Source of the DNA: Nakamurella sp. A5-74
GTDB lineage: Bacteria > Actinomycetota > Actinomycetes > Mycobacteriales > Nakamurellaceae
Reading direction: 5' to 3'
Assembly (NCBI RefSeq): GCF_040438885.1
Contig: NZ_CP159218.1
Coordinates: 1,984,001-2,048,000 of the forward strand
Length of the DNA: 64,000 bases
The notes beneath the pieces are model-generated. The model was given only the letters and a program-made list of their open reading frames with translations. It was not told the DNA's origin and searched no databases. The first letter of the stretch is position 1, and the number at the start of each line of letters is the position of its first letter. Of this stretch, positions 44,974 to 51,744 are shown one piece after another. Both the position numbers and the translations under genes were made by a program.

Positions 44974-47900
44974 TCAGCTCTTCACGGTGATGACGGTGGA
45001 ACCGATCACCGGCGCGAGCGATGCAGCTCCGGTGTATTCGCGCATGGACTCACTGCTCACCCGGACGGAGATCGTGCCGGCCTTGATCGCCGTCACCACT
45101 CCAGTTGTCGGGTCCAGGATCGCCGTTCGCCCGGCCTTCTTCGCGGCGGTCAGGGCTGCGGCCCCGCTGCCGAGCGCCAGGCCGGACGTGGGGATCCAGT
45201 GCACTGACATCGGGTACCGCAGCGGGACCACTCTCGTGCCGGGAGCGATGCCGTCGGGCTGGACGAGAGTGCCGGTGACGGTGGTCTTCCCGCCGACCTT
45301 CAGCGAACCAGGGCCGGTCAGCCGCACCGACTGGGCGAAGGCGTGCACGTCGCCGGTCAGCCACCGGCCGTCGGCCTGCTGGGTCGGATCGACCGTCCAG
45401 TTGAGGAAGCCGGTGAACCCGCCCCGCTCGGGTGTGCCGTACGGAGCCTTCCCGGACGACGGCAGCACCGTGTACGGCACACCCTCGAGGCGGTGCACGT
45501 TCAGCACCTGGGCGTGCGAGCCGGTCATCGCTGCGCCCTTGCCGGTGGAGGTGCGGAAGTCGGACAGCATCTTCTCGATCAGGGCGACCTCCATCCGGTC
45601 GCCGAGCTGACTGGTGGCAGCCTCCTCCGGATCGTCGACCGGGTGGTGGGCGAAGACCAGGACATTCTTGATCGAGGCATTGCTCCTGGCCTGCTGCAGG
45701 GCTGACTGCAGCATCGCGTACTGGGCGAAGTCCGATCCACGCAGCGTGCCCAACGCGCTGTTGAGCAGGATGAACCGGGTGCCCTTGTGGTCGAAGGTCC
45801 GGTAGGGCCGACCGAACTCGGCCACGAACGGAGCCAGGTCACCCTGACCGTTCACCCGGTACGACTCGTGGTTGCCCGGCACGTAATAGCACGGGAACCG
45901 GCCGGACGCCGAGTCCGGCGTGTAGTTCGCCGGCAGCGGCGCGTCGACGGTGACGAGATCGCACCCGCCGGCCTCGAGGGTCTTGCGGGCCAATGAGATG
46001 TCTTGCGGTGCACCTAGATCGGTGATGTCGCCGTTCAGCACGACCAGGTCCGGATGCTGCGTGCCGATGCGCTTCAGTGCGGCCACGCCGACCTTCGCGA
46101 GCTCGGGGTGCGCCGCGGTGAACTGCACATCCGACAACGTCGCGTAGTTCCAGGTGCCGGGGGAGCTGGGCGCCGTTCCGTCCGGGCTGAGTAGCGGATC
46201 CGGCCGGGGCGCACCGAGCGCGGGCACGTCGATCGCCGGCGCCGAGTCGTAGGCGATCGAGTCGAACACGATGGTGCCTGCGCCCTGCTTGAGAGCGTCG
46301 GTCTCGACGGCCTGGAAGTACGTCAACCGGATGGGGAAGAGGGTCCCGGACGGGAACACCCAGTCGATGGACTGCTTGCCCGCGGTGATCGCCGGGCCGA
46401 GGAAGCCGCCGTTCACCCCGGCGCCGTCCACCCACCGCAGCGAGGAGAACTGCATGGCGCGGGAGGACGTGAACGACACCCGGACTCGCAAGGGCGCACC
46501 GGGCAGCGTGAGCAGGGCGGGCGTGCCGGTGAAGGTGATGCCCTGGTTGCGGCGGGCCGTGAAATCAAGCCGCAGCTTGCCGTCCTGCAACAACAGCTTT
46601 TGCTCCGCGGGCACGGTGCCGTTGGTCGTCCACCGGCTCACCTCGTCCGCCGCGTCGAAGGAATACAATTGCGTGGTGGTGACGCCAACGGTCACCGGCA
46701 GCGTGGTGCGGACGCCCGCAGCCGTCAGCGTCATCAGGGTGGCGCCCTGCCGCAGCGGTGTGATGCGCAGACCGGTGTTGTCGGCGGTGATCCGCAGGAC
46801 GCTGCGGTCGTAGTCCAGGCCCAGGTCGCCGAGCTCGACCGGTGCCGCGTAGCCCTGCGCGTCCCGCCCGGTGACGTCGAGGTGGACGGCCGCAGCATCG
46901 CCGGCCCCGGGGAGCGCGAGCCGACGTTGCGAGGTCTCCAGGCTGTGCAGCGGGCCGAGCACGGTCAACGAGATCCCGCCGCGGATGGAGCCCGCCGACG
47001 CGGAGACGGCCAGCCGACGCTGGACCGCGAGCGAACCGTCACCCGCCGGGGCGATGACGGTGGCGCCACCGGCGCCCGGGATGATCCTGGCGCGACCGGC
47101 GAACCAGGCGATGGCTGCGGGGAGCGAACGAGGAGTGAGGTTGGCATCGACGGCACTGACGGTCAGGCTGCGGCGCAGTCCGGGGAAGACGGCATCGGCG
47201 CGCACGGTGCCTGCGCGGACGGCTGCCTGGTCGGCCCGCGGTCGCACGACGAGCGACCCGGCGCCGCGACTGCTCGGGCTCACGAACACGCCGACACCGT
47301 TGGGGTCGATGCGTTCTGCGCCATCGGACGGACGGTTGCGGACGTCGGCCTGCCGGTCGCCCGCCGCTCGGGCCACCAGGGTGGTCGAGCCGCCGCCGTC
47401 GAGGTTCACCGCGGTCTGCACGCCCAGCGAGATGAGTTGCTGTGCAACGGAGGTGAGCGTCCGGCCGGGGACCAGGGTCTGCCGACCGTCGGTGGTGAAC
47501 AGCACCAGCGTCCGGCCGTCGTCCTTGATGCCCAGCGCCGTCCGGGGAGCCAGCGAGGTGTCGCTCTGCTGGACCACCGCGCCGTCGCGGACCAGCACCG
47601 CGTTGGCGCCGATGACCATGTTCATCCGGCCGGCGAGCTCGTCCTTGAGTCGGTAGTCCAGGGCCGCGGGAGTGCCGATCGGCAGTGCGCGGAGTGCGGC
47701 AGCCGAGGCGCCGCGGGCCTGCAGGACGAACGCGCCGGCCGGGATGGCGCCGGTTCCGGCGGCGTCGGTGACCGAGCGGATCGCCCCGTCGACGACCAGC
47801 GCCTCGACCACTGCGGGCGCACCCTCCAGACCGCGACTCCGGCTGGCCGTCCCCCATCCGGGGGTGAAGGCGATGAGTGCATCTGCGGGCGACGAGCCGT

Positions 47901-48513
47901 TGACGGTGTTCAGTGCGAGTACCGGGTACGGCGTGCCGCCGAGCGTTGCGGTGGCCTCGATAGCGGCGTCGACCAGGGAAGCGATGCGGTCGCGGGTGAT
48001 GCCTACCTGGACACGTCCGCCGATCTGAGCGCTCTTGAGCAGGTCGCCGCCCTGCACGGCGGCACCCAGGGGTGCGCCGGAGCCGTCGATGTCGAAGAAG
48101 TCGCCGTTGGTCGCGGCCACCGCGCCGCGCGCGTTGGCCGCGGTGGAGATGGGCCCACGGTCGGAGACTCCCGGTCCTGCGGTGATCAGGTCGGTGCTGA
48201 CCGCCGGCTGGGCGAGGTCGACGGTGAGTACCTGGTCGTCGAACCAGCCGTCGCCGGTGAGGGAGGTCCGCCGGTCGAGCGTGATGCCCGGCCCGAGCTT
48301 CTCGGTGACGCTGCGCAGCGGGTAGGAGGCGTCCGCTGCGGGTGCAGTCGCAAGGGCGACGGTCCGGGCTGGAGCGGTGGGCGCCGGTGCAGTCGATGCT
48401 GCCGCCACCGCCGTTCCGGGCGCGAGTGGTGCCAGCACGGTGGCGACACCGAGCGCGGCGATGACTGCAGCGGTCGTGGCGTAACTGCCACGGCGGCGGT
48501 GAAGGAGTGACAC
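44974..48513 (-). CDS. Secreted phosphodiester glycosidase / metallophosphatase fusion protein
   Basis: A 1179-residue exported protein from GTG 48513, with GGAGG just upstream and a clear signal peptide (RRRGSYATTAAVIAALGVAT, then an Ala-rich cleavage region about 40). Residues about 100-370 form a NAGPA-like phosphodiester glycosidase domain (AATNGDFFD, ALGIKDDGRTLVLFTTDGR, NLDGGGSTTLV). A middle beta-rich part includes a carbohydrate-binding-like module (about 640-780). At about 785-1030 lies a calcineurin-like phosphoesterase (GDITD, GNHE, FAHHP), in which the first motif reads SDVQ instead of DxH and the last is GSHAQ. The C-terminus has a bacterial Ig-like domain. Likely acts on cell-wall or exogenous phospho-glycans. 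Confidence 0.85.
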   Translation of the reverse strand: MSLLHRRRGSYATTAAVIAALGVATVLAPLAPGTAVAAASTAPAPTAPARTVALATAPAADASYPLRSVTEKLGPGITLDRRTSLTGDGWFDDQVLTVDLAQPAVSTDLITAGPGVSDRGPISTAANARGAVAATNGDFFDIDGSGAPLGAAVQGGDLLKSAQIGGRVQVGITRDRIASLVDAAIEATATLGGTPYPVLALNTVNGSSPADALIAFTPGWGTASRSRGLEGAPAVVEALVVDGAIRSVTDAAGTGAIPAGAFVLQARGASAAALRALPIGTPAALDYRLKDELAGRMNMVIGANAVLVRDGAVVQQSDTSLAPRTALGIKDDGRTLVLFTTDGRQTLVPGRTLTSVAQQLISLGVQTAVNLDGGGSTTLVARAAGDRQADVRNRPSDGAERIDPNGVGVFVSPSSRGAGSLVVRPRADQAAVRAGTVRADAVFPGLRRSLTVSAVDANLTPRSLPAAIAWFAGRARIIPGAGGATVIAPAGDGSLAVQRRLAVSASAGSIRGGISLTVLGPLHSLETSQRRLALPGAGDAAAVHLDVTGRDAQGYAAPVELGDLGLDYDRSVLRITADNTGLRITPLRQGATLMTLTAAGVRTTLPVTVGVTTTQLYSFDAADEVSRWTTNGTVPAEQKLLLQDGKLRLDFTARRNQGITFTGTPALLTLPGAPLRVRVSFTSSRAMQFSSLRWVDGAGVNGGFLGPAITAGKQSIDWVFPSGTLFPIRLTYFQAVETDALKQGAGTIVFDSIAYDSAPAIDVPALGAPRPDPLLSPDGTAPSSPGTWNYATLSDVQFTAAHPELAKVGVAALKRIGTQHPDLVVLNGDITDLGAPQDISLARKTLEAGGCDLVTVDAPLPANYTPDSASGRFPCYYVPGNHESYRVNGQGDLAPFVAEFGRPYRTFDHKGTRFILLNSALGTLRGSDFAQYAMLQSALQQARSNASIKNVLVFAHHPVDDPEEAATSQLGDRMEVALIEKMLSDFRTSTGKGAAMTGSHAQVLNVHRLEGVPYTVLPSSGKAPYGTPERGGFTGFLNWTVDPTQQADGRWLTGDVHAFAQSVRLTGPGSLKVGGKTTVTGTLVQPDGIAPGTRVVPLRYPMSVHWIPTSGLALGSGAAALTAAKKAGRTAILDPTTGVVTAIKAGTISVRVSSESMREYTGAASLAPVIGSTVITVKS

Positions 48514-48739
48514 AGGGCCTCCAGGTCGGGTCGCGCGGACTGCGGCACCCCGCCCGCGCGTGGAATCTTCACGTAGGGAGCCCTCTCGAAGGTAGAGAAT
48601 GACATCGATTGCACGATGGCGCAGAGGTGGACGGCTGCGGTCCACCGCATGACGCTCGTACACCGACGCGTGCGGCGGATGGCGGCGGCCGTGCGCCCAC
48701 CCGGCCGATCGGCACGGTTCCCGTCCCGAACCCGGTGGC

Positions 48740-50056
48740 TCAGGCCGAGCCGAGATCCACCCGGAGCGCCCGCAGCCTGATCGCTGCCGACATCCGCTCG
48801 GCGAGCACGGCAGCCGGGAGTCGGACACGGACGTCGGTCGCCGGATCGTGGACGGACATCGCACCGGTCGACACTTCGTCCTCGCCCACCACCACCAGCA
48901 GTGAGTCACGACGTCCGCTGGCGGCGCGGATCCGGGACCCGAGGCTTCCCTCAGCCTCCAGGCGGAGGCGGACACCGTTGCAGCGCAACAGGTTCGCAGC
49001 CTGATCTGCGGCAGCGCGTTGCGCGGCGCTGACGGGCAGGAGGCAGACCTGCACCGGCGCGAGCCAGAGCGGCAGCCGCCCGCGGTGCACCTCCAGCAGC
49101 AGCGCCACCATCCGCTCCATCGCGCCAAGGGTGCCGCGGTGGATCATCGAGACCAGCGGACGCGCACCGCCTGAGTCGGTGTAGCGCAGGTCGAACCGTT
49201 CCGGCTGGTTGAAATCCAGCTGGACGGTGCCGAGGGTCTCGACCTGACCGCGCGCATCCCGTACCTGGACGTCGATCTTGGGTCCGTAGAAGGCCGCCTC
49301 CCCTGCTACCTCCCGACTGTGCAGCCCGCGTCGCGGAAGGTCGATCGCGACCAACGCGGCGCGCAGCCGATCCTCAGCGGCGGCCCAGTGCTCGGCGGCG
49401 CCCAGATATCCGTCGCCGGATCCCCGTCGCGACAGCCGAAGGTGATCCACCGAGATCCCCAGCACCTCATAGGCATCGAGCAACGCCTGCAGTGCCGCGG
49501 CCACCTCGGGGGCGACCTGGTCCGGTCGGCAGAAGACGTGGGTGTCGTCCAGGTCGATCTGCCGGACCCGGCTCAACCCGCTGAGCACTCCGGACCGCTC
49601 CGCCCGGAACATCGGTGCCAGCTCGTTGAGCCGGATCGGCAGATCGCGGTGGCTGCGGATCTCCGCGGCGTAGATCATCGCGTGGTGCGGGCAGTTTGCC
49701 GGTCGCAGCACCAATTCGTCACCGCCGACCGGCATCGGCGGGAACATGTCGTCGGCGAACTTCGCCCAGTGCCCCGACCGTTCGAACAGTGCCCGCTTCC
49801 CCAGCACCGGGGAGTACACCGGCGAACACCCGGTGGCCAGTGCGATCTCGCGGGCGTACTGCTCCAGTTCGTACCGGACCACCGCTCCGGCCGGTAGCCA
49901 GAGCGGGAGACCGGCCCCGGCGAGCGGATGGGTGGTGTAGATGCCCATCTCCCGACCGATCACCCGGTGGTCGAGGGTCGACGGTCGCGACGGATCCGCA
50001 CTCAAGATCGGCAGGGCGGGATCTGCTGCGGACGAGGGATCGTGCTGTGCAGGCAT
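48740..50056 (-). CDS. Short threonyl-tRNA synthetase lacking TGS and editing domains
   Basis: Class II aminoacyl-tRNA synthetase of 438 residues (usual ThrRS 640-690). It contains only the catalytic core and the anticodon-binding domain: motif 1 region HPLAGAGLPLWLPAGAVVRYE, zinc-site RPANCPHHAMIY, motif 2 MFRAERSGVLSGLSRVRQ, motif 3 MIHRGTLGAMERMVALLLE, then LPLWLAPVQVCLLPV. The N-terminal TGS and the His-rich editing domains, which remove Ser-tRNA(Thr), are absent. ATG 50056 is used; earlier in-frame sequence overlaps the leader region. Behind a leader with Thr codons. It could be a second ThrRS, for example for stress or inhibitor tolerance; a full-length one is expected elsewhere. Confidence 0.9.
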   Translation of the reverse strand: MPAQHDPSSAADPALPILSADPSRPSTLDHRVIGREMGIYTTHPLAGAGLPLWLPAGAVVRYELEQYAREIALATGCSPVYSPVLGKRALFERSGHWAKFADDMFPPMPVGGDELVLRPANCPHHAMIYAAEIRSHRDLPIRLNELAPMFRAERSGVLSGLSRVRQIDLDDTHVFCRPDQVAPEVAAALQALLDAYEVLGISVDHLRLSRRGSGDGYLGAAEHWAAAEDRLRAALVAIDLPRRGLHSREVAGEAAFYGPKIDVQVRDARGQVETLGTVQLDFNQPERFDLRYTDSGGARPLVSMIHRGTLGAMERMVALLLEVHRGRLPLWLAPVQVCLLPVSAAQRAAADQAANLLRCNGVRLRLEAEGSLGSRIRAASGRRDSLLVVVGEDEVSTGAMSVHDPATDVRVRLPAAVLAERMSAAIRLRALRVDLGSA

Positions 50057-50097
50057 CGGAACTCCTGATGGGAAGGGAGAGTCCGGGGAGATGCAAG

Positions 50098-50122
50098 GAG
50101 CCCCGGAGAATCTCCGGGGCTC
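50098..50122 (-). terminator. Attenuator hairpin before the ThrRS gene
   Basis: A perfect 12-bp inverted repeat, GAGCCCCGGAGA with its complement, separated by one base (effective loop 3-5). It lies 18 bases after the leader-peptide stop and 42 bases before the ThrRS start. Together with 50159-50172 it allows alternative pairing (see the leader entry). Confidence 0.7.
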
Positions 50123-50139
50123 GGGTGGTGACGGTGAGG

Positions 50140-50202
50140 TCAGCTCGGACGGGCGAGGCCGGAGTGGTCCGGCGTCGTCGTGGGTGCGAACGCGTTCCTC
50201 AT
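50140..50202 (-). CDS. Putative threonine leader peptide of the ThrRS gene
   Basis: A 20-codon ORF, MRNAFAPTTTPDHSGLARPS, with three consecutive ACG threonine codons (50181-50173). Directly downstream is CCGGACCACTCCGG (50172-50159): its second half (CTCCGG) can pair either with the first half (CCGGA) or with CCGGAG in the 5' arm of the following hairpin. This is the 1:2 / 2:3 / 3:4 layout of ribosome-mediated attenuation. Stalling for lack of Thr-tRNA would free the hairpin's competitor and let transcription reach the synthetase. The ribosome site (CTGGGCGG) is weak. Inferred from sequence only. Confidence 0.6.
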   Translation of the reverse strand: MRNAFAPTTTPDHSGLARPS

Positions 50203-50331
50203 CCGCCCAGCCTGATCCGGCGTCCGGGTCGGTGTCAACCGGGATGGACGAGCCAGTCGCAGCTCGGCCCGGTTCCCAGCTGGCCCCGGTCCCAGCTCGG
50301 CAAGGTCGCGGCACGACATACAGTCCTGTCC

Positions 50332-51744
50332 ATGCGCACCACTGACGAGCTGCCCGACCCGATGATCACCCCCCCGCAGACAGCGGTGCCGGAACCGGTG
50401 GACCGCGCGCTCCGCATATTGACCACCTCGGCCAACCACGGGCTGTTGTGGTTCGGGGTCGGCGCGGTCGGGGCGATGCTGGGCAAGCGTCCGCGGCGCG
50501 CGGCGCTCAGGGGGGTCGCCTCCCTCGGGATGGCCAGCTTCGTCGCGAACAGTGTCATCAAGCCGCTGGTGGGTCGCCGGCGACCCGATCCGCAGCGCAC
50601 GAAGACCGCCCGTCGCATCGGCAAGATCCCCTGGACCAGCTCCTTCCCCAGTGGTCACTCGGCCTCTGCAGCCGCCTTCGCCACCGGCGCTGCCCTCGAA
50701 CTTCCGTTGAGTGCAACGGTTCTCGGCCCGCTCGCTGCAGCCGTCGCCTACTCCCGGGTGCACGTCGGCGTGCACTACAAGTCCGACGTCGTCGTCGGGG
50801 CGGCGTCCGGCGTGGCGGTGGCGCTGCTGGTGCAGAAGCTGTGGCCGGCCAAGCCGTTCGCTCCGGCCGAGATGGACAAGGTGGACGCTCCGGCGCTGGC
50901 CGAGGGCGCCGGGCTGTTCGTCGTGCTCAACGAGCTCTCCGGCTCCTCCGACGGCGCCGAGGAGGCGATCAGGAAGGTCCTGCCCCAGGTCGAGATCGTG
51001 CAATGGGATCCGGAGAACGAGGATCTGGCCGATCTCGTGCCCGGCTCTGCGTCGGCGGTCGGGGTGGCCGGCGGTGACGGCACCGTCGCCTCGGTGGCTG
51101 CGCTGGCGATCGAGCGGAACCTGCCCCTGGCCGTCTTCCCGGCCGGCACCCTCAACCACTTCGCCGGCGCGCTCGGCCTGGCCACCCACCAGGACACCGC
51201 CACCGCGGTGCTCGCTGGAGCGGGCGGATCGGTGTCCGCCGCCGCACTGAACGGCAACGTGTTCCTCAACACCGCGGGTATCGGTGGATACCCCGAGCTG
51301 GTCCGGTTGCGGGACAAGCTCAGCCACCGGATGGGCAAGTGGCCGGCCGCCGCGTACTCGCTGGGCAAGGTCGTGCGTGGCCACGCGCCGCTGCACCTGG
51401 TGATCAACGGCAAGCCCGTTCCGGTGTGGGCGGTGTTCGTCGGCAACGGTGTCTACACCCCACGTGGTCTGGCGCCCGCCTGGCGCGACCGGCTCAGCGA
51501 CGACGTGCTGGACGTGCAGTACCTGCGCGCGGACAAGAAGTTCTCCCGCACCATCGCGGTGGTCGCCTCGCTGATCGGCCTGGTCGGGCAGACCAAGGTG
51601 TTCGGTGCCGTCGACGGGCGCTCGGTCACCATCACCTCGCAGGAGGGTCCGGTGCTGGCGGCGCACGACGGGGAGGTCACCAGCCCGCACGAGAAGATCG
51701 AGCTGGAGATCCTGCCGCAGCGGCTGGTCGTCTACCGCGGATGA
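50332..51744 (+). CDS. PAP2 phosphatase / diacylglycerol kinase-type fusion protein
   Basis: A 470-residue bifunctional protein from ATG 50332. The N-terminal PAP2 domain has KPLVGRRRP at 77-84, PSGHS at 106-110 and [12 protein letters not shown] at 141-152, the three motifs of acid phosphatases that act on lipid phosphates. The C-terminal half is a DAG-kinase-type domain with [13 protein letters not shown] at 247-259 and [13 protein letters not shown]. The two activities are opposite (dephosphorylating and phosphorylating lipids), so it may act in lipid remodelling or undecaprenyl-phosphate metabolism. The stop overlaps the acylphosphatase ATG. Confidence 0.93.

Follow-up and report, generated by a model that had tools for sequence, protein, structure and literature searches.

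What controls the gene of a short threonyl-tRNA synthetase (ThrRS) in a genome that encodes a full-length ThrRS as well? This question is raised by a minus-strand locus of Nakamurella sp. A5-74 within the window, the whole 64,000-nucleotide stretch of DNA that was analysed here. A sequence-only reading of this stretch had proposed a threonine attenuator, consisting of a short leader ORF and competing RNA pairings, in front of an editing-deficient ThrRS. We compared the locus with related loci from other genomes and propose that the leader senses charged tRNA-Thr, probably through ribosome stalling, and that a further pairing layer acts at the ribosome-binding site (RBS) of the ThrRS gene.

The leader and the short ThrRS in the window

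The 20-codon leader with three consecutive ACG codons was confirmed as described by the sequence-only reading, and encodes the peptide MRNAFAPTTTPDHSGLARPS* (Table 1). The ACG codons stand directly before segment 1. The 1:2 pairing likewise stood, with 6 bp between 50173-50168 and 50163-50158 (-9.4 kcal/mol, a stability reached by 0 of 200 shuffles), and the 2:3 pairing is present in the window (CTCCGG 50164-50159 with CCGGAG 50117-50112). The 3:4 hairpin was found at 50122-50098, with 11 bp and a 3-nt loop in place of the 12 bp originally given (-22.6 kcal/mol, reached by 1 of 200 shuffles). Over 150 nt (50206-50057), the predicted fold is 4.6 sd more stable than those of dinucleotide shuffles. 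An RBS pairing (5:6), a leaderless start, and a codon partition were absent from that reading and are added here. The 5:6 hairpin of the window is unremarkable when taken alone (-8.2 kcal/mol, a stability reached by 22 of 200 shuffles). Furthermore, the partner of the hairpin tip (50092-50087) lies next to the anti-Shine-Dalgarno strand (50085-50076) in the window and does not share its bases, so that the mutual exclusivity of the two pairings is less clear there.

Table 1. Positions of the leader elements and of the short ThrRS gene in the window.
Feature	Position	Strand	Remark	Basis
-35 hexamer TTGACA	50233..50238	-	18 nt before the -10	sequence
-10-like CAGGCT	50209..50214	-	12 nt 5' of the leader ATG	
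Leader peptide ORF, 20 codons	50140..50202	-	predicted leaderless	conservation and -10 spacing
Sensor, three ACG threonine codons	50173..50181	-		
Segment 1, GCCGGA	50168..50173	-		
Segment 2	50158..50164	-	TCCGGC in 1:2, CTCCGG in 2:3	
Segment 3	50112..50122	-	5' arm of the 11-bp hairpin	
Hairpin tip L, GGAGAT	50110..50115	-	alternative partner of the downstream strand	family-level tests; here sequence
Segment 4	50098..50108	-	3' arm, not followed by a U-run	
AUCUCC	50087..50092	-	able to pair with the hairpin tip	sequence; pairing class backed at family level
Segment 5, anti-Shine-Dalgarno strand CGGA..CUCC	50076..50085	-		folding and family level
Segment 6, Shine-Dalgarno AGGAG (50066-50062) + UCCG	50057..50066	-	pairs with segment 5	
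Short ThrRS, 438 aa	48740..50056	-	catalytic and anticodon-binding domains only	

Two ORFs near this locus are of note. A divergent plus-strand ORF (50332-51744) faces away from the leader promoter, and its translation gives the impression of a PAP2-phosphatase with a diacylglycerol-kinase-like domain. Downstream of the ThrRS gene lies a very long minus-strand ORF (44974-49128), whose listed start overlaps the ThrRS and is probably false; by its translation it resembles a phosphodiester glycosidase with a metallophosphatase.

As had been claimed, the 438-residue ThrRS lacks TGS and editing domains: at E<=0.001 its Pfam matches are confined to the class II core and anticodon-binding domains, and its designation as editing-deficient is a prediction from these absent domains. 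The score against the ThrRS model TIGR00418 (379 bits) is below the curated cut-off of 383.65, with profile positions 170-562 of 565 matched. The protein can be aligned to solved ThrRS structures, and C122, H173, and H306, which we take to be the zinc ligand positions, are invariant among the 17 short ThrRS compared. On the grounds of this alignment and these invariant residues, the short ThrRS is probably active without an editing domain. Elsewhere, the window genome encodes the second, full-length ThrRS (37% identical to the short one) and one tRNA-Thr each with a CGU, GGU, and UGU anticodon, as seen among 40 of 45 tRNA matches, the other five being 83-87 nt long.

In a ThrRS tree computed with a quick method, in which several rows have long branches and L057 was left out, a single branch (99*) separates 68 short ThrRS rows from 20 full-length ThrRS of actinobacteria. 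In one genome (G295) the only ThrRS found is full-length and is preceded by the same kind of leader, MARVFWSTTTPGISRRLSLAR; this enzyme is placed in the full-length clade, and thus the leader module precedes two ThrRS lineages. A short ThrRS with an in-frame tandem GERLG run in its catalytic domain was observed in genome G144 (L175).

Conservation and start of the leader

The sequence-only reading had staked its claim on the conservation of the leader ORF and its Thr codons, which were found to be kept both within and outside the class of the window. The short type, picked by a ThrRS match at E<=1e-90, occurs in 47 of 296 genomes of this class. Of the 55 loci read, window included, two (L051, L075) are cut by contig ends, and 52 of the remaining 53, again including the window, have a leader with consecutive Thr codons; the sole miss (L080) was judged to be of the other ThrRS type and was dropped. 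The commonest leader form is M(Q/K)RAxxTTTPE(T/S)VPAR. A further set of 80 loci contains 14 short ThrRS, when L126 from the Bacillota is counted as not short, and 13 of them have the leader, in Streptomyces, Kitasatospora, Amycolatopsis, Actinocrispum, Plantactinospora, and Antribacter. In the exception, L082 (the same contig as in G746:C225, locus L243), the leader ORF is lost and the hairpin and RBS region are kept, making it a natural leader knock-out before a short ThrRS. Two leaders, L057 and L071, are frameshifted after TTTP, yet retain the RNA of segment 2.

An RNA covariance model built from 51 leaders (R1) recovers all 45 readable class members, as expected by construction. In 396 genomes of the phylum it gave nine matches at E<=0.001, five within the class and four outside, and all four outside matches lie upstream of a short ThrRS and have a Thr-rich leader. 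In the genus holding Streptomyces, 39 of 81 genomes have an R1 match, including G746 with its lost leader, and a ThrRS follows the leader in 27 of the 29 new loci from this search (L220 and L233 were not parsed). All R1 matches above about 41 bits that were read precede a ThrRS gene or remnant, except for one in G288. There (G288:C18:79-217, L178), a full leader stands at a contig end, and the first residues after the following start codon are not ThrRS-like. Weaker matches were checked in part: those in G629 (36.8 bits) and in the window (37.7 bits) proved real, and those in G342 (40.1 bits), G116 (35.4 bits), and G253 (33.4 bits) were rejected on reading. In G727:C149 (L242), the Thr leader occurs a second time, directly before a broken short ThrRS remnant.

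Among 94 loci with long ThrRS frames, up to three of which may be short-type loci with accidental long frames, four have a TTT-bearing ORF upstream, and a TTTP leader is present only in G295. Comparison of three leader peptides with the NCBIfam models gave no matches, and neither did an Rfam scan of the window, T-box and Thr leader families included, at the gathering score.

In 65 of 66 loci, a TANNNT element precedes the leader start, at a distance of 13 nt in 49 loci and of 12 nt in 16; the best-fitting in-frame candidate was used as the start in this count. The frequency expected by chance is 0.2% when three positions are allowed and 1.2% over 18 nt. The exception is the window, with CAGGCT at 12 nt. 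Based on this spacing, the leader is predicted to be translated from a leaderless mRNA. For Streptomyces lividans thrL, MKRVRPFLETTPGFVPAR*, a leaderless start mapped by RNA-seq has been reported, with TAnnnT given as the -10 motif (PMC8079986). The same peptide also precedes a short ThrRS in two of 392 genomes of the Streptomyces-holding genus, and S. lividans thrL is therefore a member of the same family.

Pairings and codon usage across the family

Coevolution of the paired segments was assessed by a partner-swap test, in which partners from the same locus were compared with partners permuted between loci (5000 permutations); the divergent L079 was kept in this test and left out of set A2 and one coevolution analysis. 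Across all 96 loci, the signal was strong for the pairing of the hairpin tip with the downstream strand (tip:5, z -10.5) and of this strand with the Shine-Dalgarno (5:6, z -9.8), and modest for 2:3 (z -3.4, 6/5000), with controls from 0 to +1.4. For the 14 loci with <70% ThrRS identity, tip:5 (z -4.7, 0/5000) and 5:6 (z -3.1, 6/5000) retained their signal, and 2:3 was marginal (z -1.5, 335/5000), with controls from -0.7 to +1.4 (tip:6, z -0.2). The nine loci with <62% identity gave z -2.8 for both tip:5 and 5:6 and z -1.8 for 2:3 (200/5000), a signal less clear of the controls tip:6 (z -0.7) and 4:5 (z -1.8, 230/5000). The values for 3:4 (z -20.8, -8.3, and -6.3 for n = 96, 14, and 9) arise largely by construction, since its arms had been defined by selecting the best hairpin.

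In an alignment of 51 leaders, 85.3% of the cells are paired in the off-state structure, which comprises 28 pairs and was derived from one member. Two-sided changes occur in 17 of these pairs, including nine in 3:4, and it is this result on which we rely for the 3:4 hairpin. On the same alignment, tip:5 is 90.5% paired, and five of its seven pairs have changed on both sides. For 2:3, 92.6% of the cells in a MAFFT alignment are paired, without covariation; the window and Antribacter have CUCCGG/CCGGAG where most loci have UCCCGG/CCGGGG, which by eye is a compensated change hidden by the alignment. Independent-pair tests of single positions on the tree were underpowered for want of independent changes, and tip:5 showed no lean towards pairing there. 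Overall, the same downstream strand can pair with either the hairpin tip or the Shine-Dalgarno, and coevolution of both pairings extends to distant members. We are highly confident that the RBS pairing 5:6 is real in the family, and nearly as confident for tip:5. Sequestration of the RBS by an alternative pairing is supported at the family level, the window's own 5:6 being weak. Since the strand lies beyond the hairpin, such a switch would work only on transcripts that extend past it.

The Thr codons also differ between the leader and the gene that it precedes. Among the Thr triplets of 96 leaders, 283 of 288 are ACG and five are ACC, whereas ACG makes up 13 of 561 Thr codons in the short ThrRS genes (65 genes, 53 of them with none; L057 left out). 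By comparison, ACG accounts for 342 of 926 Thr codons in 43 neighbouring ORFs picked by GC3 and for 60 of 358 in the 20 actinobacterial full-length ThrRS; other four-fold codon families show no comparable gap. Within the same 30 genomes, ACG accounts for 7 of 284 Thr codons in the short ThrRS, 187 of 584 in SerRS, and 188 of 550 in HisRS (29 SerRS and 28 HisRS genes, after one SerRS and two HisRS loci at contig ends were dropped). The ACG fraction is lower in the short ThrRS in 27 of 29 genomes when compared to SerRS (higher in two) and in 28 of 28 when compared to HisRS. Thr itself is less frequent, with 2.3% of the codons in the short ThrRS vs. 4.9% in SerRS and 4.8% in HisRS. All 11 Thr codons of the window's short ThrRS are ACC, and the leader-bearing full-length ThrRS of G295 has 24 ACC and no ACG. 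The full-length ThrRS of the window genome, which has no leader, also lacks ACG (0 of 21 Thr codons), so avoidance of ACG also occurs in the absence of leader control. According to theory, attenuators use the codon whose tRNA loses its charge first (PMC1183508); by this selective-charging theory, the sensing codon here would be ACG.

Proposed mechanism, alternatives, and related systems

Control of the gene by a leader that senses Thr-tRNA is very likely, and this leader is probably a ribosome-mediated attenuator that senses a shortage of charged tRNA-Thr and raises a backup ThrRS. The originally proposed threonine attenuator is thus supported by the conserved leader, and its 1:2 and 3:4 pairings are kept. 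More tentatively, we propose a portable, two-layer, isoacceptor-specific attenuator in which ACG is the gauge, one ribosome position sets both read-through and RBS opening, and the ThrRS is purged of ACG and of Thr in general. The portability is seen in G295, where the module stands before a full-length housekeeping ThrRS. Transcription would start on the leader start codon or immediately beside it, placing the leader on a leaderless mRNA, and the attenuator would sense in particular the tRNA that reads ACG. With ample Thr-tRNA, the ribosome would reach the leader stop, 3:4 would form, and strand 5 would mask the Shine-Dalgarno (5:6), keeping the gene off. A ribosome stalled on the ACG codons would mask segment 1, allowing 2:3 to replace 3:4 and RNA polymerase to continue; the tip of segment 3 would then be free to capture strand 5, opening the Shine-Dalgarno and turning the gene on. 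As the ThrRS message reads Thr almost only via ACC, it would stay translatable during ACG stalling. Of this scheme, the data show the conserved leader, Thr codons, and -10 spacing, the coevolution of tip:5 and 5:6, the two-sided changes in 3:4, and the codon partition; that the gene responds in this way, that 3:4 terminates transcription, and that both layers are coupled is inferred. The coupled double lock of transcription and RBS layers, as drawn, is possible but somewhat less likely than not, and equilibrium folding with 2:3 or 3:4 forced gave it no support: in 64 loci, the mean openness of the Shine-Dalgarno was 0.28 with 2:3 forced vs. 0.29 with 3:4 forced, and with a shorter 2:3, at least four expected pairs were obtained for tip:5 in 25 of 61 loci and for 5:6 in 49 of 61.

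Termination at the 3:4 hairpin separates this scheme from a purely translational attenuator, in which the leader ribosome only frees the Shine-Dalgarno (tip:5 vs. 5:6) and 3:4 does not terminate. The U-runs are mostly weak, as only 11 of 64 loci reach five or more T in their best 8-nt window, and a terminator scan of the window that requires a T run made no terminator-like call at the 3:4 hairpin. The translational variant would also fit the coevolution of 5:6 and tip:5, the single hairpin without a U-rich stretch described for S. lividans in the accessible part of PMC8079986, and the position of the tip's partner beyond the hairpin, where it would act only after read-through. It sits less well with two loci (L010 and L011) in which an 8-nt window following the hairpin holds six T, and the hairpin appears longer than presentation of the tip would require. 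We slightly favour termination by 3:4 in vivo and regard the purely translational variant as less likely than not.

The peptide TTTPE(T/S)VPAR might itself stall the ribosome, perhaps with a ligand, and it is well conserved within one large clade; however, the sequence after TTTP is variable or frameshifted elsewhere (GVPGAPH, SRRAVM, SRRAD, DHPRRADS), and the frameshifts in L057 and L071 preserve the RNA of segment 2 and not the peptide, making an arrest peptide very improbable. Autoregulation is known from Escherichia coli thrS, where ThrRS binds its own leader, and if it operated here the leader ORF would serve only for translation re-initiation. The presence of an RBS pairing would agree with this, but the conserved ACG runs, the leaderless start, and the codon partition would be left unexplained, and the leader also precedes a full-length ThrRS of another clade; we consider autoregulation very unlikely. 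High-GC DNA contains many ORFs and hairpins, and a chance ORF before an ordinary terminator of an upstream gene could look similar. The probability of such a coincidence is negligible given the conservation of the leader (52 of 53 and 13 of 14 loci, and all four R1 matches outside the class) and the ThrRS gene or remnant behind all higher-scoring R1 matches that were read, with the exception of G288 at its contig end.

The sensor type is already known, and one instance, S. lividans TK24 thrL-thrS, is in print. It shares the Thr leader, the leaderless start, and one hairpin followed by thrS with the loci described here, and its exact peptide with two genomes; the accessible part of that study covers one strain and one hairpin, leaves termination unclear, and mentions neither an RBS pairing nor a codon partition, a wider family, or a short ThrRS (PMC8079986). 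The classical amino-acid-operon attenuators and those of Streptomyces leuS and trpS also combine a leader containing regulatory codons with antiterminator and terminator hairpins, but the trp terminators shown in the available part of that survey have poly-U tracts, which most Thr leaders here lack, and no conserved structure was seen there at threonine operons (PMC1262725). Mycobacterial poly-Cys sORF attenuators are similar in being leaderless short ORFs with consecutive codons that target a downstream gene; they differ in amino acid and target, and control of translation is stated for them (PMC9031893). The enterobacterial thr operon leader has a run of Thr codons as well, in E. coli eight ACC codons (PMC1183508), compared to ACG in the Thr leaders here. 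Finally, the duplicated ThrRS of Anabaena (ThrRS-T1/T2) include one that is stress-induced, but its trigger is zinc limitation (PMC9437257), whereas the short ThrRS here keeps C122, H173, and H306.

Neither the wider family nor the second pairing layer nor the codon partition was found in the literature searched, most subscription papers being outside its reach. Together, they extend a one-strain instance to a family that occurs within one class of its phylum and outside it, and whose proposed two-layer design can be tested. The use of ACG as sensor codon and ACC as effector codon provides a natural means of testing the selective-charging theory (PMC1183508). The findings also suggest an occasion for an editing-domain-free ThrRS in actinomycetes, namely low Thr-tRNA or a main enzyme blocked by an inhibitor such as borrelidin, which is made by streptomycetes (PMC4389257). 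The motif TTTPGAR, similar to the Thr leaders, is also found in the S. lividans metL leader peptide listed in Table 4 of PMC8079986.
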